64,000 bases of DNA, from the IMG/VR virus record IMGVR_UViG_3300035169_000077, positions 1-64,000 of that record; one strand, given 5' to 3'. How positions within the stretch are numbered: the stretch's first letter is position 1; each line of letters starts with the position of its first letter. The notes beneath the pieces are model-generated. The model was not told the origin of the DNA. It saw nothing but the letters and a program-made list of their open reading frames with translations, and searched no databases. Below are positions 99-38,338 of this stretch, piece by piece. This stretch comes from a virus. Made by a program: the position numbers and the translations under genes.

Positions 99-431
99 GT
101 GGGCATGCTGGTCACCCGCGCGGACGGCCTCATCGACCGCGACCAGGCCGCCGAGCTCTGCGGGGTCTCCCCGGACGCGATCACCATCTGGGCAACCCGC
201 GGGTACGTCGTCACGCTCCCGGACGGCAAGAAGGAACGCCGCTTCCTGCCCGTCGCGCTGCGCGAGGGACGCTCCCCGTACTACGACCCGGTTGAGGTCG
301 CGAAGGCCGAGCGCGCCACCCGCAAGCGCGGAAGGCGCCCACCGCCGCGCCCTCTCCTGCGCAGCGCCAACACCGCCGGCATCGAGGCCAGCGGGATAGA
401 CCCCAGGCAACTCCGGGGGCGGGCGGCCTGA
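99..431 (+). CDS. small helix-turn-helix DNA-binding protein
   Basis: A 110-residue protein. Residues 17-35 (AAELCGVSPDAITIWATR) look like a MerR/excisionase-type helix-turn-helix, and a basic tail (RKRGRRPPPR) follows near residue 75. Start is GTG at 99 or ATG at 105, with no clear ribosome site for either. It lies just left of the terminase genes, so a role in packaging or regulation is possible, but the sequence does not settle this. The family is not firmly identified. Confidence 0.6.
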   Translation: MGMLVTRADGLIDRDQAAELCGVSPDAITIWATRGYVVTLPDGKKERRFLPVALREGRSPYYDPVEVAKAERATRKRGRRPPPRPLLRSANTAGIEASGIDPRQLRGRAA

Positions 432-449
432 GCCGCTAGCCTCTGCCAC

Positions 450-638
450 ATGACCACCCCGGCCGACCCGCCGCCCGGCAAGTCAATCGTGTCGTCCTGC
501 GCGGCCTGCGGGCGTCCCAAGGTCAGCGTCCACTGCATGGCGCTCGCCTGCACCTGGGCACGCTGCGACACCTGCCACGCCATCACCGGCACCGTGCGAG
601 GCCAGCCCCACGCGATGGGGACGCCGTTCCCCGCGTGA
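450..638 (+). CDS. small zinc-ribbon-like protein
   Basis: A 62-residue protein with two cysteine pairs, CAAC near residue 17 and CDTC near residue 39, spaced as in a small zinc ribbon. There is no Shine-Dalgarno sequence. Instead a -10-like hexamer TAGCCT (437-442) ends 7 nt before the ATG, the layout of a leaderless transcript. Function is unknown. Confidence 0.6.
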   Translation: MTTPADPPPGKSIVSSCAACGRPKVSVHCMALACTWARCDTCHAITGTVRGQPHAMGTPFPA

Positions 639-671
639 CCCTCATGGAAACGGCGGCGGGAGGCGACCCTC

Positions 672-1274
672 ATGGATGAGGACAAGCCGAAGTGCGCCGG
701 GATGTCCAAGCAGACCGGCAAGCGCTGCAAGCGAGACCCGGCGATCGGCCTGGACAAGTGCGCCATCCACTGCGGGCTGTCGAAGGCCGAGCGCGACCGG
801 ATCGCCGCCGAGTACCTCGCCATGCAAGAGGCCCGCAGGGCCGTCATCACGTACGGGCTACCCCGGGACATCTCGCCCGGCGACGCCCTGCTTGAGGAAG
901 TGCGCTACACGGCCGGCCACGTCGCGTGGCTGCGCGAGCGGATCCGGGAGCTTGAGGACCGCGACCTAATCTGGGGCGTGACGGAGCAGGTTGAGAAGAA
1001 CGCCACCGAGTTCGAGGGCACCGACACGACCGAGGCCGCCAAGCCGAACGTGTGGCTTGACCTGTACTACCGGGAGCGCAAGCACCTAGTCGACGTCGCC
1101 AAGGCTGCCATCGCCGCCGGGATCGAGGAGCGCAAGGTTCGGCTCGCCGAGCAGCAGGGCGCGCTCGTCGCCATGGTGATCCGCGGAATCCTCGCTGACC
1201 TGAAGCTGACCCCGGACCAGCGGGAACTCGTCGCCGAGGTGGTGCCGCGCCGCCTCCGGGCGCTCGCGGGCTAG
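672..1274 (+). CDS. terminase small subunit (probable)
   Basis: A 200-residue protein directly upstream of the large terminase and only 15 bp from it. A cysteine/histidine cluster at the N terminus (KCAGMSKQTGKRCKRD, then CAIHCG) is followed by helical, charged sequence (residues 70-200), as in many actinophage small terminase subunits. Such proteins bind the packaging site and load the large subunit. The assignment rests on position and layout more than on a diagnostic motif. Confidence 0.65.
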   Translation: MDEDKPKCAGMSKQTGKRCKRDPAIGLDKCAIHCGLSKAERDRIAAEYLAMQEARRAVITYGLPRDISPGDALLEEVRYTAGHVAWLRERIRELEDRDLIWGVTEQVEKNATEFEGTDTTEAAKPNVWLDLYYRERKHLVDVAKAAIAAGIEERKVRLAEQQGALVAMVIRGILADLKLTPDQRELVAEVVPRRLRALAG

Positions 1275-1289
1275 CAGGGGAGGGCGGCT

Positions 1290-3677
1290 GTGGCCGCCGA
1301 CACGGAGTGGGTTGAGTACGCGGCCCGCGAGTTCGAGGTTGTGCAGCCGCCGGAGTGGCGCGAGATCGCCCGGCCGGAGCAGCTGCCCCCGGATGGCAAG
1401 TGGCTGACGTGGGCGTTCATCGCCGGGCGCGGCGCGGGCAAGACGCGCTCCGCGGCCGAGTGGGCGCATGCACGGGCGATGGAAAACCCTGGCTGCCGGA
1501 TCGCCCTCGTTGGCCGTACCCCGGCCGACGTGCGCGATGTCATGATCGAGGGCGAGTCGGGGATCCTCGCGATCGCGGGCGGCGACAAGCCCGTCTACCA
1601 GTCGACCAAGCGGCGGCTGACGTGGCCGAACGGGTCGATGGCTTATGCCTATTCTGCCGAGGTCCCCCCGCAGCTGCGAGGCCCCCAGCACCACTACGCC
1701 TGGGCTGACGAGGCCGCCAGCTGGACGGACGCCCGCAAGGGCGACGTGCTGGACACGGCGTGGAACAACCTCATGCTCGGCCTGCGGCTCGGCGCTGACC
1801 CGCGGTGCGTGGTCACGACGACGCCGAAGCCGAACGCGCTCACCAAGACGATCCTCGGCCGGAAGTCGACCGTCGTCACCAAGGGCACGACGTACGACAA
1901 CCTGGCGAACCTGGCCCCGTCGTTCCGCGAGGAAGTCCTCGCCGCCTACGAGGGCACCCGCATCGGCCGGCAGGAACTGCTCGGCGAGATGCTCGAAGAC
2001 GTCGAGGGCGCGCTGTGGACGCTCGCGCTGATCGACCAGGCCAGGGTCAAGGGCCACCCGGACCTGGCCCGCGTCGTCGTCGCGGTCGACCCCTCCGGCG
2101 GCGAAGGCCCGGACTCTGACGAGCAGGGCATCATCGTGGCAGGCCTCGGGGTCGACGCCGAGGTGTACATCCTGGCGGACAGGTCATGCAAGCTGTCCCC
2201 GCACGGCTGGGCGTCGCGGGCCGTGGCCGCTTACCGGGAGTTCGCCGCTGACCGGATCGTCGCCGAGGTGAACTACGGCGGCGCGATGGTGGCGTCAACG
2301 ATCGGGATGGCCGACTCCGCAGTTCCGGTGAAGGTGATCACCGCCTCGCGGGGAAAGGTGCAGCGGGCCGAGCCGGTCTCCCTGGCATACGAGCAGGGCC
2401 GCGTGCACCATGTCGGGCCGCTGGCCAAGCTCGAAGACCAGATGACCACCTGGACCCCGCTGGACGGGACGAGTCCAGACCGGCTGGACGCCTGCATCGC
2501 AGCCGGGACGCCAGTGCTCACGGCGCGCGGCGAGGTGCCGATTGAGGATGTCGTAACCGGAGACCTGGCGTGGACGCGCCAGGGCTGGAAGCCGGTCACG
2601 GCGGCTAGGCGCACCCGCAGGGACGCTGAGGTACTGACGGCCGTGCTGTCGTCCGGCAGGACACTGACGGCCACCCCGGACCACCGGGTATGGGTTGAGG
2701 GCATCGGCTGGACCCGGATGGATGCCCTCGTGTGGGCTGATAGACTTTCAGGGTGGAAGAATCCCCGGTCGCAGTCACCTACAGAGGCGTCACGTACAAG
2801 CGCAACCCCAGCGCTAAGCAGCGTGCCCACCGGGTCTACTACAACGCACCGAGAGGCAGCGGGCGCAGTTCGCTGCACCGTGACACCTGGCGCGACAACC
2901 ACCCCGGCGAGGACATCCCCGCAGGCTGGCACGTCCACCACAAGGACCACGACCCGTTCAACAACGACCCCGGCAACCTCGTCCTCCGGTCACCCAAGGG
3001 CCATGCCGCCGAGCACCCCGAAGTCGCCGGGATGCCAGCCGATCACCTCGCCGCCATACGCCCCCTCGCCGCCGACTGGCACGCAAGCGCCGAGGGCCGC
3101 GAGTGGCACGCCGAGCACGGCAAGCGCACCTGGGAAGACCGCGAGCCCGTGGCCCGCAAGGCATGCGGCCAGTGCGGCGAGCAGTTCGACGCGTGGTTCG
3201 ACCGGGCCGAGTACTGCTCTCGCACCTGCATCAACCGCGCCACTGAGCACAGGCTCCGCCGCAGTGCCGTCTGCGTCATCTGCGGATCGGAGTACGAGCA
3301 GGACCGCAAGGCCCGAGGTCAGACCTGCTCCCGCAAGTGTGGCGCGGCTCTGCGCAAGCAGCGAGCGGCGTGACGTCTACGACCTGACGGTGGCCGATGC
3401 CCATGAGTTCGTCGCGGCCGGGGTCATCGTCCACAACTGCGTCTGGGCGATCACCGAATTGACCGGGAACTTCGGAGCGGACGCCTGGCTGGCATGGGGG
3501 CGACGCAAGGCGCAGGAAGCCGCTGCGGCGCGAGGTGAAGCCCCCGCCCCCGCTCCTCGCCCGCCAGTGGCCCAGCCCGAGGCACCCCCCGAGCCGGAGC
3601 ATGTCCCGTTGGACCCGGTGACGGCACGGAAGCTGGCAAGGGACGCGGCGTTCAGGTCATCAGGTAACGGACGGTAG
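1290..3677 (+). CDS. terL: terminase large subunit containing an intein
   Basis: DNA-packaging motor of 795 codons, about 480 residues after protein splicing. The ATPase Walker A motif is GRGAGKTR (residues 46-53) and Walker B is HYAWADEA (D140-E141). The RNase H-like nuclease shows VVVAVDPSGG (D267), a VAEVN segment (E326) and the SPDRLDA segment (D397/D400). An intein starts at C402 and ends H715-N716, with C717 as the +1 residue, so splicing restores RLDA-CVWAITEL, the conserved nuclease motif. The tail is Pro/Ala/Glu-rich. Start is GTG. Intein insertion at the catalytic nuclease motif is typical, because that DNA is highly conserved. Confidence 0.93.
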   Translation: MAADTEWVEYAAREFEVVQPPEWREIARPEQLPPDGKWLTWAFIAGRGAGKTRSAAEWAHARAMENPGCRIALVGRTPADVRDVMIEGESGILAIAGGDKPVYQSTKRRLTWPNGSMAYAYSAEVPPQLRGPQHHYAWADEAASWTDARKGDVLDTAWNNLMLGLRLGADPRCVVTTTPKPNALTKTILGRKSTVVTKGTTYDNLANLAPSFREEVLAAYEGTRIGRQELLGEMLEDVEGALWTLALIDQARVKGHPDLARVVVAVDPSGGEGPDSDEQGIIVAGLGVDAEVYILADRSCKLSPHGWASRAVAAYREFAADRIVAEVNYGGAMVASTIGMADSAVPVKVITASRGKVQRAEPVSLAYEQGRVHHVGPLAKLEDQMTTWTPLDGTSPDRLDACIAAGTPVLTARGEVPIEDVVTGDLAWTRQGWKPVTAARRTRRDAEVLTAVLSSGRTLTATPDHRVWVEGIGWTRMDALVWADRLSGWKNPRSQSPTEASRTSATPALSSVPTGSTTTHREAAGAVRCTVTPGATTTPARTSPQAGTSTTRTTTRSTTTPATSSSGHPRAMPPSTPKSPGCQPITSPPYAPSPPTGTQAPRAASGTPSTASAPGKTASPWPARHAASAASSSTRGSTGPSTALAPASTAPLSTGSAAVPSASSADRSTSRTARPEVRPAPASVARLCASSERRDVYDLTVADAHEFVAAGVIVHNCVWAITELTGNFGADAWLAWGRRKAQEAAAARGEAPAPAPRPPVAQPEAPPEPEHVPLDPVTARKLARDAAFRSSGNGR
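2493..3437 (+). other. intein in the large terminase, with an interrupted linker
   Basis: The element is 315 codons long. The N-terminal splicing block begins C402 (CIAAGTPVLTARGEV) and contains block B with T462-P-D-H465. The C-terminal block is DVYDLTVADAHEFVAAGV followed by IVHN, and then Cys+1. Only about 115 residues resemble splicing domain. The roughly 205 codons between them give a Ser/Thr/Ala/Pro-rich sequence without hydrophobic core, because this DNA codes for an HNH endonuclease in another frame. The intein frame has no stop codon across that stretch, so a full precursor can be made. Confidence 0.9.
2753..3373 (+). CDS. HNH homing endonuclease nested out of frame in the intein
   Basis: A 206-residue protein read in a different frame from the terminase. 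The HNH core is HVHHKDHDPFNNDPGNL (residues 60-76), followed by two zinc-binding CxxC pairs (C138/C141 with C155/C159, and C174/C177 with C192/C196). It fills exactly the gap between intein blocks B and F, where in-frame homing endonucleases normally sit. It has its own GTG start and TGA stop. A TAGACT hexamer (2741-2746) lies 6 nt before the GTG, so it may be made from its own leaderless message. The protein should cut intein-free terminase genes and drive homing. Confidence 0.85.
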   Translation: MEESPVAVTYRGVTYKRNPSAKQRAHRVYYNAPRGSGRSSLHRDTWRDNHPGEDIPAGWHVHHKDHDPFNNDPGNLVLRSPKGHAAEHPEVAGMPADHLAAIRPLAADWHASAEGREWHAEHGKRTWEDREPVARKACGQCGEQFDAWFDRAEYCSRTCINRATEHRLRRSAVCVICGSEYEQDRKARGQTCSRKCGAALRKQRAA

Positions 3678-33962: not shown

Positions 33963-34214
33963 GTGGACTCCGCCCTGATGAGCGTGCTCACGGGCAGCGG
34001 GGTAGCGGGCCTGTTCTGCATCCTTTTCATCATCGGGCTGGTCATACCGAAGCATGTCTATGACGACCTGCGGGCCGAGAACGCGGAGCTGAAGGCCGAG
34101 CGGAAGGCCGAGCGGGACCGGGCCGACGCCGCAGTCGCAGCGGCTGAGGCGACCCGGAACATCATGGCGTCGTTCCAGGCCGGCCGGAGCCTCACAGGCG
34201 GCCCTCCGCCGTGA
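33963..34214 (+). CDS. small membrane protein with coiled coil (holin-like)
   Basis: An 83-residue protein from GTG 33963 with GGGAGG upstream. One membrane segment (GVAGLFCILFIIGLVIPKHV) is followed by a charged coiled coil (LRAENAELKAERKAERDRAD). It opens the lysis region after a 165-bp gap that holds only a 7-bp hairpin (33878-33901). Holin or holin-partner role is inferred. Confidence 0.6.
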   Translation: MDSALMSVLTGSGVAGLFCILFIIGLVIPKHVYDDLRAENAELKAERKAERDRADAAVAAAEATRNIMASFQAGRSLTGGPPP

Positions 34215-34444
34215 TCCGCGTCATTGCCGTTACCCGGAGGGCCATGAGCGCCTTGTTCCCGTGGCCTGCCCGGAGCGAGCGGAAGGCCGCCATAGCGAAG
34301 GCCCGCGACGGGCGGGAACAGGCCGAGGCCAGGGCCGCCGAAGCGGTCGGCGTAGAGGCGCAGATCAGGCAGATGGCGGCGCAGAACCACTTCGCCCAGG
34401 TGATCGCCGAGCAACTGACGCAGCATCACCGCCGGGAAGCGTAA
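34211..34444 (+). CDS. small coiled-coil protein of the lysis region
   Basis: A 77-residue protein from GTG 34211 (GTGA overlap). A short hydrophobic-aromatic start (LFPWPARSERKAA) is followed by a helical region ending HFAQVIAEQLTQHHRRE. Similar small proteins lie beside actinophage holins. Function is unknown. Confidence 0.55.
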   Translation: MIRVIAVTRRAMSALFPWPARSERKAAIAKARDGREQAEARAAEAVGVEAQIRQMAAQNHFAQVIAEQLTQHHRREA

Positions 34445-34458
34445 GGCAACAGGGGGAA

Positions 34459-34896
34459 ATGAAATTGCTTCGTCGCGTCACATGGCGCAGCTGGGCCGGG
34501 CTTGCCCTGGTCCTCGCCGCCTATATCGGCATGGGCTTCTGGTGGGGATCCAACGGCAACGTAGAGGCTCTCATCTACAAGTGGGGCTTGCTGGCCGCGT
34601 CCGTGGCCCCGTTCGCCCTGATAGCCGTTTACACGGCGTCCCGGAACAAGTGGTGGTCGAACGACCTCGGAACGGCGCTGGTGCAGACGGCGCTGTGCAT
34701 GGTCCCGATCGCGGGCCCGCTGGCTTACGTCTTCTGGGTCGACAACGGGATGCTCACGTCGTCGCTGCTGGCCTGGGTTGAGGTGTCCGGCCCGGTGCTG
34801 TCCACGCTGGCGATGCTGCGGCTCTGCTGGGTGTTCGCGCGTATCCACCGGGACGGCAACGGGCACGGCGGGCCTCGGGGCAACGGTGACGGGTGA
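34459..34896 (+). CDS. four-segment membrane protein
   Basis: A 145-residue protein, ATG 34459 behind AGGGGGAA. Hydrophobic spans near residues 12-30, 42-62, 75-95 and 100-125 (LALVLAAYIGMGFWW and others), with a Gly/His/Asn tail (DGNGHGGPRGNGDG). A holin or membrane anchor is plausible from context. Confidence 0.65.
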   Translation: MKLLRRVTWRSWAGLALVLAAYIGMGFWWGSNGNVEALIYKWGLLAASVAPFALIAVYTASRNKWWSNDLGTALVQTALCMVPIAGPLAYVFWVDNGMLTSSLLAWVEVSGPVLSTLAMLRLCWVFARIHRDGNGHGGPRGNGDG

Positions 34897-34987
34897 TGCC
34901 CGCCGGGCACTGTGGCCCTTGCTCATCGCCGCCATCACCGTGACAGCGGTAGGGGTGGCAGTCCTCATCGCACTCGTCAGCCACTAG
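34886..34987 (+). CDS. single-span membrane miniprotein
   Basis: A 33-residue protein from GTG 34886, overlapping the previous gene by 11 nt. Almost the whole chain is one membrane helix (LLIAAITVTAVGVAVLIALV) after a short charged start. It may regulate the neighbouring membrane protein. The start is inferred, since no other start is available. Confidence 0.5.
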   Translation: MTGDARRALWPLLIAAITVTAVGVAVLIALVSH

Positions 34988-34999
34988 CAAAGGGGCCTG

Positions 35000-35545
35000 A
35001 TGGCACTCGCGGACCTGTCCGTCCTCGCCGCGCGGAAGAACGGCGGCTCGTTCCCCACGGGCTACCCGTCGTCGCCGCTCACGTTCTACAGCCCGGTCGA
35101 CGATCTCCATGGCGCGCTCCTCGACGTGATGAACGCCGCGACGTCCAGCCTGGTCGTGGTGATGTACGGGCTGGATGATGACGAGCTGGTGAAGCTGCTC
35201 CACGAGAAGCTCGACGATGAGCACTGCTTCGTGCAGCTCACCCTCGACTCCTCCCAGGCTGCCGGGAAGCACGAGGCGGCGCTGCTCGCCAAGGACGTCT
35301 TCCCGTCGAACACGGTCGCCATAGGTCGCAGCGAACGGGGCGCGATCATCCACCTGAAAATGGTGGTCGCGGACGGAATCGACGTGATCACGGGGTCGAC
35401 GAACTGGTCAGAGTCCGGGGAGTCGCTACAAGATAATGCCCTGATCATCATCAGGGACGCCCATGTCGCGGCAGAGGCTCGCACTAGAGCGGACATCATT
35501 CACCAGACGATTCTCACGAGGGCCGCTGCCCTGCACGCCTCCTAG
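35000..35545 (+). CDS. phospholipase D-like protein (single HKD motif), 3' end rebuilt
   Basis: A 181-residue protein. One HKD motif: H118-L-K120, D125, then G132-S-T-N135. PLD proteins cut phosphodiester bonds in lipids or nucleic acids and need two HKD motifs, so this one would act as a dimer. The last 30 residues ([20 protein letters not shown]) recur as a fragment at 36058-36156, beyond an inserted HNH gene whose 3' end overlaps this one by 32 nt. The last part uses codons less GC-rich than the fragment. Confidence 0.75.
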
Positions 35546-36026
35546 CAACTGCCCGCCGCTCGTTCTCCCGCTTGGTCACCGGGTCAAGGTGCTCGGGATT
35601 CACGCATGCCCGGACGCAGCAGAGGTGATCTAGGTGCTTCCCGGTCGGGATCGGGCCGACGTGCTGTTCGTACATCCAGCGGTGCGCCCGGAGGGTCTTG
35701 CCGTCTCGCCGTAGGGCGCCGTAACCGGTTTTGAGCATCGCTCGCGCCCAGATCCAGCAGGGCGTTTCGTAGCCCATGTCTTCGACTCGGTACAGCGGCT
35801 TGGTGTGGATACGCAGGAGTCCTTCGGATATAGCCCGGCGCGCCTCAGGCGAAAAGACCCTGCCGGTACCGGCGTCAGCGATAGCTGCCCGGTGCTCCGG
35901 CGTCAGCGATCGCCCGCGCATCTTCGATGCGCGGAGTTCCCGGATCTCTGGATTGGTCCACTGATGTCCTCGCAGGTAACGACCGCGAGTCGGATGTCCG
36001 CCGCAACCGCAAAGGCAATCTGACAT
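35514..36026 (-). CDS. HNH endonuclease with NUMOD3-like repeats
   Basis: A 170-residue protein, start ATG 36026. The N-terminal cysteine motif [19 protein letters not shown] precedes NUMOD3-like DNA-binding stretches ([15 protein letters not shown] and [14 protein letters not shown]). The HNH core is [25 protein letters not shown] (36033-36038, minus strand) stands 6 nt before the ATG. It is convergent with the PLD gene and flanked on both sides by copies of that gene's 3' end, so it is an inserted mobile endonuclease. Confidence 0.85.
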
Positions 36027-36042
36027 GTCAAAAGCATACCAG

Positions 36043-37056
36043 CTAGCCGTCATTCGCAATGCCTTGGTGATCATCAGGGACCCGCACGTGGCCGCTGAGG
36101 CGCGGACGCGGGCGGACATGATCCACCAGCATGTCCTGACGGCCGCGCGCCGGTAACTCCGCCTTGGGCTGCCTGCCCGAAGCCATCAATGCCCGGTCAA
36201 GGCACTCCGCGTAGTCGGGGGCGATCAGGTCGAACGCGGACAGGCCATTGCCGAACCAGTAGTCGTCCCAGTTCGCCGGGTCCATGCGCAGGCCGCCTAG
36301 GCTGCCGCGAAGGCCGGCCATCCCCAGTTCCCACTGCACGGGGCGGGGAAGGCCCCAGAACAGGTCCCGCGCCTCCTGCTCGCGGTGCTCGTCGCGGGCT
36401 TCCTCGTCATGCTGCGCCCATTCTTCCGGGGCCTCCCGCGCCCATTTCGGCCTCAGGTCGGTGCCCTCGGGCGGCTGCCATGCGGCCGCCCTGGGGTTCG
36501 GGAACTGATCGGCCGCCGAGTAGGACAGGACAACCGGCTCGTCATCGCGGGACCGGAGGAACGCGGTCACGTCCTCCCATGACTCATGGCTTGGCCGGCC
36601 GCACCGCTCGCGGTAGCCGGTGTTGCGGCGGAACGTCCCCGCGTCCAGGCCCTCGTCGATCATCTCGGCGAGCCATGCCCGGTCGGCCCCCTCGCACCAG
36701 CAGTGGATCTCAGCCTGCCCGGCGATGCGGGCAGCGAGCCTCAGTGGGTTGTTACTGCCGGCGGCTGCCATCGCGGTGTTCAGCAGCAGCGTGAGCGAGT
36801 CGATCTCGCAGCCCTTCCACCACAGGACAGGCTCCGAGATGCGCAGCAGCGTCTCTACCGACTTCAGCCACGCGTCATCGTCACGGAACCGCAGCCCCGG
36901 GTAGGGGTCGGGGGCGAGTTCGCGGCACAACGCGATGTGGCTCGGCATGTCGAGCACCGCAAGGGCGGCGTCCTTCACCAGGTTGTGCAGGTGATGGTGC
37001 TCGCCGCCCCAAAGCTCCGCGTCGCCCGACGGCGAGTGAAAGTAGACCCTGCTCAT
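36043..37056 (-). CDS. conserved actinophage protein of unknown function
   Basis: A 337-residue protein, start [20 protein letters not shown]. Features are [40 protein letters not shown] and [19 protein letters not shown]. This layout occurs in other actinophage lysis regions. TAGGCT (37064-37069, minus strand) lies 7 nt before the ATG. The last 35 residues run antisense through the displaced PLD fragment, so its C terminus may be altered by the HNH insertion. Confidence 0.65.
36058..36156 (+). pseudogene. displaced 3' fragment of the phospholipase D-like gene
   Basis: Thirty-two codons plus TAA read [20 protein letters not shown] and on to [12 protein letters not shown]. This is the same end as the intact gene at 35545, with mostly third-position differences. 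It has no start of its own and is the original tail cut off by the HNH insertion. Confidence 0.85.
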
Positions 37057-37123
37057 GCCGGCAAGCCTAGGCGTTGAGAAGCGCGTTCGGACGGCTGCGA
37101 CTGCGGGAAGAAGGCGGCACCGG

Positions 37124-37216
37124 GTGAGCCTCGCTGACGTCCTGTGGGCCGGTGCCGCTCTCCTGGCCCTCGCGGTCCTGACGGCGGTAGCCGACTGGCT
37201 CCGGGGTGGCCTGTGA
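37124..37216 (+). CDS. single-span membrane miniprotein
   Basis: A 30-residue protein from GTG 37124. It is nearly all one membrane helix (VLWAGAALLALAVLTAVADW). Its stop overlaps the next start (GTGA), which supports translation. Part of the second lysis/membrane cluster. Confidence 0.5.
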   Translation: MSLADVLWAGAALLALAVLTAVADWLRGGL

Positions 37217-37353
37217 CCGCGAACGGCCAGTGGTGGCTCTGCCCCAACGAGCCGCGATGCCCTCACGCCGCCGTGGTGCACGACATCGAGGACTTCGACG
37301 ACGAAACCCCGCGCTGCTGCGCCGAGGGCTGCGACTGCGGAAAGCGGGCCTAG
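37213..37353 (+). CDS. small cysteine-rich protein
   Basis: A 46-residue protein from GTG 37213. It carries cysteines in WLCPNEPRCPH and in CCAEGCDCGKRA, suggesting a small metal site. Coupled to neighbours on both sides (GTGA before, TAGTG after). Function is unknown. Confidence 0.55.
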   Translation: MTANGQWWLCPNEPRCPHAAVVHDIEDFDDETPRCCAEGCDCGKRA

Positions 37354-37583
37354 TGTCGATCCTCCGGGACCTGTTCGGCCCGGGGACGTGGGGTGCGGGT
37401 GGCAATCTCGCCGCCGCGCCGATCCTCGCGGTGATCAGCGGCGGCGTGGCGTGGCTGCTGCGGCACAAGATCGGCCGGGGACTCGCCGCCTGGTGGGCAA
37501 AGCACCACGGGCCGCACGCCATAGCCCAGCACCGTGAGGCGCTGCGGCAGCACGAGGAAGCCAAGCGGAGGGACGCGCAGTGA
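37353..37583 (+). CDS. small membrane protein before the endolysin (holin-like)
   Basis: A 76-residue protein from GTG 37353. One hydrophobic span (AAPILAVISGGVAWLL) and a long basic, His-rich C-terminal helix (HKIGRGLAAWWAKHHGPHAI). It overlaps the endolysin start by GTGA. Position points to a holin or anti-holin. Confidence 0.6.
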   Translation: MSILRDLFGPGTWGAGGNLAAAPILAVISGGVAWLLRHKIGRGLAAWWAKHHGPHAIAQHREALRQHEEAKRRDAQ

Positions 37584-38338
37584 GCATCACGATGTTCGAC
37601 ACGATCACCGAGTCCGCGTGGCCATCTGACCCGCAGGCGGTCCTCGGCTACGTGGACGGCCACGTAGGGGACCAGCCGGACTGGGCTTATGTTCAGCACC
37701 GGTTCCCGAACGCCTTCCACCTGTCGATCGCCCTGGACCCCGCGCACGACGCGATGGCCCTGGACATCGAGACGGGGGCGGCTTCCCCGTCGTCGGCGGT
37801 CGCCTGGTACGAGCGGCAGAAGGCCAGGGGTGTCGCCCGCCCTTGCCTGTACGCCTCCGCCTCCCTGATGGAGGCCACCATCATCCCGGTAGTCCGCGCG
37901 GCCAGGTTCCCCCGTGACCAGGTGCGGCTGTGGTCGGCGCACTACACGCACTCGGCTCACATTTGCGGGCCGTCATCCTGCGGGCTGACGTCGGTCGCCG
38001 TGGACGGCACCCAGTGGACTGACCGGGCGTACGGCCGGAACCTCGATCAGTCGCTCCTGCTCGGCGACTTCTTCGGCGCGGCACCCAAGCCCCCGCCCGG
38101 GCATCCGTCGCCGTGGCCCGCTGGCACGGTACTCCGTGAGGGGGACTCCGGCGCTGCCGTCCGCGCCTTGCAGACGGCACTGAGCGACTCCGGCATCAGG
38201 GGAGTACGGGGCATCACCGTTGACTCGGTGTTCGGGCAGCAGACCCTGACCGCTGTCCGGAACTTCCAGGCGGATAAGGGGCTGGCGGTAGACGGCATCG
38301 CCGGGCCTCAGGTTCGCGCAGCTCTCGGCATCCGGTGA
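37580..38338 (+). CDS. endolysin: glycoside-hydrolase-like domain plus peptidoglycan-binding domain
   Basis: A 252-residue protein from GTG 37580. The catalytic part (residues 1-165) resembles DUF1906/GH25-like hydrolases: VLGYVDGHVGDQ, MALDIETGAASP, LWSAHYT and DGTQWTDRAYG, with acidic residues in the DIE motif. Residues 185-252 are a PG_binding_1 domain (LREGDSGAAVRALQTALSDS, ending GIAGPQVRAALGIR). It digests the cell wall at lysis. No signal peptide, so it needs a holin. Confidence 0.8.
   Translation: MSITMFDTITESAWPSDPQAVLGYVDGHVGDQPDWAYVQHRFPNAFHLSIALDPAHDAMALDIETGAASPSSAVAWYERQKARGVARPCLYASASLMEATIIPVVRAARFPRDQVRLWSAHYTHSAHICGPSSCGLTSVAVDGTQWTDRAYGRNLDQSLLLGDFFGAAPKPPPGHPSPWPAGTVLREGDSGAAVRALQTALSDSGIRGVRGITVDSVFGQQTLTAVRNFQADKGLAVDGIAGPQVRAALGIR

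Follow-up and report, generated by a model that had tools for sequence, protein, structure and literature searches.

The locus examined here raises the question of how a phage gene that has been split near its end by an endonuclease gene can go on encoding a complete protein. The window, that is, the whole stretch of 64,000 nt that was analyzed, comes from a 98,687-bp IMG/VR virus record (IMGVR_UViG_3300035169_000077), which is probably metagenome-derived. It carries a phospholipase D-like (PLD) gene on the plus strand at 35000-35545, recognized from its reading frame and the Pfam domain PLDc_2, in which a core of codons 1-142 (35000-35425; PLDc_2 E = 5.5e-13) with the HKD motif H118-x-K120-x4-D125 is completed by a tail of codons 143-181 plus stop (35426-35545). 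An HNH endonuclease gene for 170 aa lies convergently on the minus strand at 35514-36026 (HNH_3 E = 5e-15), with a likely ATG start at 36026 and a possible in-frame ATG upstream at 36053. A spacer (36027-36057) leads to a headless second copy of the PLD end, codons 146-177 plus stop, on the plus strand at 36058-36156, hereafter the stub. The sequence-only reading had described a PLD end present twice, once joined to the gene (to 35545) and once headless (36058-36156), and a convergent HNH gene overlapping the restored end by 32 nt; both sets of coordinates proved exact to the base, and the overlap is confirmed by the minus-strand ORF ending at 35514.

When the record was searched with the PLD protein, the gene itself and one further place were found, 36055-36147, which matches residues 145-175 at 77%. 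The joined and the headless tail have 24/30 residues in common and are 71% identical in nucleotides, with only 13/30 third positions identical, in line with the earlier statement that the proteins are close and the DNA differs mostly at third positions. Since the flank-to-flank match around the HNH gene scores 54-58 bits, the resemblance between the tails can be taken as not due to chance. A simple target-site duplication was rejected because the copies differ at 29% of bases, so the sequence-only reading was right that target DNA had not plainly been duplicated. A further minus-strand ORF (36043-37281) runs antisense through the stub and stops in the spacer.

Which of the two ends is native can be judged from uninterrupted relatives, a comparison that the sequence-only reading had proposed. 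Two IMG/VR phage contigs, L003 and L004, carry an unbroken PLD homologue with 85-87% protein identity to the PLD of the window, and the DNA of the window core is about 81% identical to theirs. Over codons 146-175 the headless copy is 86% identical in nucleotides to each of them, whereas the joined copy reaches 69% and 71%, with 0.43 and 0.40 of third positions identical. Because the PLD ends of L003 and L004 thus match the stub and not the joined tail, the headless copy is, by sequence comparison, the native end and the joined tail the incoming one. Codon 146 comes straight after codon 145 in both contigs, and the spacer is absent from them. It follows that the insert measures about 632 bp (35426-36057), comprises the replacement tail and the HNH gene with the spacer as its right end, and entered at codons 143-146, where three native codons (143-145) have been lost or replaced. 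The sequence-only reading had also considered relatives with two tandem PLD ends; among 13 uninterrupted PLD relatives that were searched, not one has a second PLD tail at significant score. A tandem duplication within the host gene was rejected because none of them carries two ends.

The stub is free of internal stops and still resembles L003 and L004 as closely as the core does, so the insertion in the window is recent relative to the L003/L004 split, while the HNH lineage itself is old, being 60% identical to the HNH protein of a further relative, L005. Just past PLD, L003 6553-6713 corresponds to window 37360-37520; the approximately 1.2 kb from the stub to window 37360 are missing in L003, perhaps reflecting a separate gene gain. 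In a Streptomyces genome (L036 3177-3896, minus strand), a different HNH gene (42% identical) lies just upstream of a homologous PLD gene, i.e., at the other gene end. In INPHARED, neither the PLD protein nor its Streptomyces relative had a match, nor did any of the four other host proteins searched.

The HNH protein matches HNH_3 above the cut-off and NUMOD3 only below it, and matches PHROG HNH families with E values down to 4e-31. The possibility of a group I intron was rejected, since no Rfam match was found at E <= 1 in 34000-38000 and the HNH gene is antisense to the PLD gene, which reads through without splicing. The HNH gene is free-standing in that it lies outside any intron or intein, but it does not lie between genes as free-standing HNH genes do, because the insert splits the native PLD frame at codons 143-146. 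Elsewhere in the window, a terminase-like gene (1290-3677, plus strand) contains an intein with, by eye, an intein-like start CIAAGTPVLTARGEVPIEDV and the end VAAGVIVHNC, and a second HNH_3 gene (2753-3373, plus strand) is nested within it in a different reading frame.

The PLD protein has the HxK(x)4D motif and the PLD fold, and H118, K120 and D125 are invariant in 15 relatives. An AlphaFold model built on these relatives (mean pLDDT 87) gave best Foldseek matches to NucT (6ehi) and Nuc (1byr) at E about 1e-9 to 1e-8, so the modeled fold is nearest to these single-HKD nucleases. In the model, the border between core and tail falls in a loop between a helix (138-143) and a strand (146-152), and the tail supplies this last core strand together with the C-terminal helix (154-180). 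The HKD residues belong to the native core and not to the replaced tail. According to the model, a gene cut at codon 143 would lose the last strand and the helix, whereas the restored gene would keep both, and a full 181-residue protein is still encoded through the in-frame joined tail.

The codon composition of the locus connects the joined tail to the HNH gene. GC3 is 0.91 in the PLD core, 0.66 in the joined tail, 0.72 in the HNH gene and 27/30 in the stub; by this measure the composition of the joined tail fits the HNH gene and not the PLD core. In 12 of 13 relatives without this HNH gene, GC3 of the tail either exceeds that of the core or differs from it by no more than about 0.1, the exception being the AT-richer L034, where it falls from 0.63 to 0.47. 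The only other relative with this HNH gene, L005/L026, shows a fall from 0.87 in the core to 0.62 in the tail (p = 0.0014 for L005), and GC3 of the HNH genes ranges from 0.70 to 0.72. Among codons for shared residues, 0.55 and 0.63 differ in the restored tails compared to 0.40 among native tails. This excess of synonymous change is only suggestive, as the pairs are non-independent and lower GC3 alone could cause it.

Our preferred reading, to which we assign a probability of roughly 70%, is that one joint insertion between codons 142 and 146 brought in both a free-standing HNH homing endonuclease gene and a diverged PLD 3' end. An intact PLD gene would have been broken near its end by the HNH protein, and repair of the break would have copied the HNH gene and the adjoining gene end from a donor carrying both. 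The incoming tail would then have joined the resident core in frame, such that a full PLD protein is still encoded, and the resident tail would have been displaced past the HNH gene to become the headless stub. The divergence of the tail may shield it against cutting by the HNH protein and against recombination with the stub. This reading builds on four points read from sequence: which copy is native, how far the insert extends, that tail and HNH gene are linked in composition, and that the pattern recurs at five other HNH loci described below; the nuclease activity, the target site and the function of the restored protein are what we infer. The earlier proposal that the element brought a diverged copy of the gene end is thus borne out by the native stub in the light of relatives, the HNH-like GC3 of the tail and the five further loci.

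The tail might be a fixed rescue part, in which case the donor also had a stub, or it might be the end of the donor's neighboring gene, with the stub arising from one-sided repair. The linked composition of tail and HNH gene fits both. In one-sided homing, the HNH gene would have lain between genes beside an intact PLD gene in the donor, and the donor gene end would have been co-converted as a by-product; on the other side, where there is no homology past the HNH gene, illegitimate joining would have left the resident end as a stub. Compared with a fixed rescue cassette this is a serious rival, although on balance we consider it doubtful. L005 has the same arrangement as the window, a diverged PLD gene and a convergent HNH gene overlapping by 62 nt, and no stub was found in the 111 nt up to its contig end, which fits the neighboring-gene alternative; it also counts against the preferred reading, in that a donor form of the element is not observed. 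The HNH proteins of the window and L005 are 60-62% identical and the PLD proteins 64-66%, i.e., they have diverged to a similar degree, and each tail resembles its own host lineage at the protein level, as expected for one-sided homing and arguing against a single tail that moved unchanged over long distances. Moreover, free-standing phage endonucleases usually cut a neighboring gene and co-convert flanks (PMC2988022). The tail of L005, however, is also low in GC3 compared to its own core, as if tail and HNH gene had moved together.

Recurrence of joint insertion at HNH genes was assessed by scanning for direct protein-level repeats between both flanks of HNH_3 genes with single-segment scoring, as summed tblastx flank scores gave spurious matches in GC-rich sequence and were dropped. 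The sample comprised 188 distinct HNH sites, each flanked on either side by 600 nt or more, and 531 shifted pseudo-sites served as control. At the threshold of 33 bits or more, repeats were found at 7/188 HNH sites and 3/531 pseudo-sites (Fisher p = 0.004), with a best background match of 42.8 bits; the survey thus shows enrichment and not zero background, and every case was additionally inspected by eye. Excluding L080, where the repeat reflects two tandem paralogues of full length, leaves six independent cases including the window. L042 and L231 were dropped as proteins with two HNH domains; in both (L042 at 248-1636, minus strand), the two domains lie in tandem in one open frame.

The window, with its antisense HNH gene, is the only case in which a 3' end is restored, whereas the other five all restore 5' ends. 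In L044, a prophage in bacterial genome G634 that is also found as IMG/VR 2884011611, an antisense HNH gene is flanked by two copies of the first 35 codons (MAVVSV[KR]NHEDYLRS...), and the start of the stub overlaps the upstream stop. A PDDEXK_1 gene is affected in L089, where the restored segment spans its first 18-20 codons and opens the Pfam domain, and the antisense HNH gene overlaps the stub. L224 repeats the start of an Amidase_2/SPOR gene, with a stub that has its own GGAGG ribosome site and an antisense HNH gene, while in L179 the stub, the HNH gene and the restored start follow one another on one strand, the end of each overlapping the start of the next. L019 has its native GTG start joined in frame to the HNH gene, whose stop is overlapped by the restored ATG start. 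Here an uninterrupted relative, L059, shares 37/51 nt with the stub and 31/51 with the restored copy, which places it nearer the stub. For L044, L089, L179 and L224 no uninterrupted relative was found, so the native copy is identified there provisionally, from a start that overlaps or closely follows the upstream gene. GC3 of the restored copy is clearly lower than that of the stub in the window, L044, L089 and L019, slightly lower in L179 and about equal in L224 (14/20 vs 15/20).

In all six cases the copies are 63-72% identical in nucleotides and the breaks lie near a gene end; this points to a repeatable design and speaks against tails that are by-products of one-sided homing. The survey also bears on an assembly artifact. 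Since the window belongs to a virus contig in IMG/VR that is probably metagenomic, a chimera of two phage strains could be imagined; this is very improbable, as copies that are 71% identical offer no long common k-mer for misjoining and the same anatomy recurs in the bacterial genome with L044 and in four other records.

Ordinary phage mosaicism is another possible source of such loci. Homeologous recombination could have brought in a block containing an HNH gene and its neighboring gene end with the endonuclease uninvolved, and L019 offers a possible example. A second 5'-end duplication there (2891-3187, and 3325 onward) has MKLVNYGVGEISDRLTILALK fused to a helicase-like C-terminal piece, followed by MRLINFGAGEVCDRLTILALK heading the full gene; no HNH gene lies between its copies, and the gene is unbroken in L059. 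Because this duplication surrounds a non-HNH insert, gene-end duplication is, as far as these sequences show, not exclusive to HNH genes, and the strong repeats at 3 of the 531 pseudo-sites point the same way. Nevertheless, the repeats are enriched around HNH genes and sit right at the HNH borders, and the insert in the window is the HNH gene and gene end alone, which makes mosaicism unlikely as the explanation.

The usual view of phage homing endonucleases is that they either stay out of coding sequence or shelter in introns and inteins. Elements that repeatedly invade genes and supply a new end for the one they break would form a class with a third route to tolerance. Such a class would also explain some gene-end fragments next to HNH genes. 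Integrative elements likewise rebuild the tRNA or the gene end that they enter at attB, and the window element is similar in that it is inserted at a gene end and the end is restored; it differs in that it has no integrase and no identical att core, and its copies differ at about 30% of bases.

The free-standing HNH (mob) endonucleases of T4-like phages are also non-intron phage HNH genes, and break repair that co-converts their flanks is how they are expected to spread (PMC2988022). They are placed between genes, whereas the HNH gene of the window lies inside host coding sequence with a replacement gene end, and the main text of the T4 element review describes no such gene-end duplications (PMC2988022). 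A phage precedent was not recognized in the open-licence literature searched, which is weak evidence of absence.

Endonucleases that carry gene ends are known mainly from fungal mitochondria, as mORFs with a foreign carboxy-terminus in atp6 of Allomyces and in atp6, atp9, cox2 and nad3 of Glomus (PMC3630166), with a similar case in cox2 of Phlebia (PMC4019555). As in the window, the endonuclease ORF lies between two copies of a gene end, the joined copy is diverged in DNA and close in protein, and the stub matches relatives better (91-98% vs 64-81% in Glomus, 86% vs 69-71% in the window). The fungal elements differ in being LAGLIDADG or GIY-YIG, mitochondrial and at C-termini, compared to HNH_3, phages or prophages and 5' ends in 5/6 cases here. 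Hybrid transcripts were demonstrated in Glomus (PMC3630166), while the phage cases are read from sequence. The window element is thus outside the fungal mORF class by nuclease type and genome type, and a known anatomy is here extended to phages, HNH endonucleases and 5' ends.

The closest parallel in logic is found in synthetic home-and-rescue gene drives, in which an allele is cut and the cutter is inserted along with a recoded sequence that rescues the broken gene (for instance PMC7968924). Tentatively, and with less confidence than in joint insertion itself, phage HNH elements of this class may be natural home-and-rescue drives, in which the HNH protein recognizes the native gene end and the element carries a synonymously recoded end that can neither be cut nor recombine with the stub. 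If so, such an element could enter coding sequence at the 5' or the 3' end of a gene and leave that gene functional. The synthetic drives use an engineered Cas9, whereas recoding to escape cutting is a hypothesis for phage HNH elements. As a natural counterpart of engineered rescue drives, they could allow rules such as the divergence needed and the position of the break to be read from alignments.
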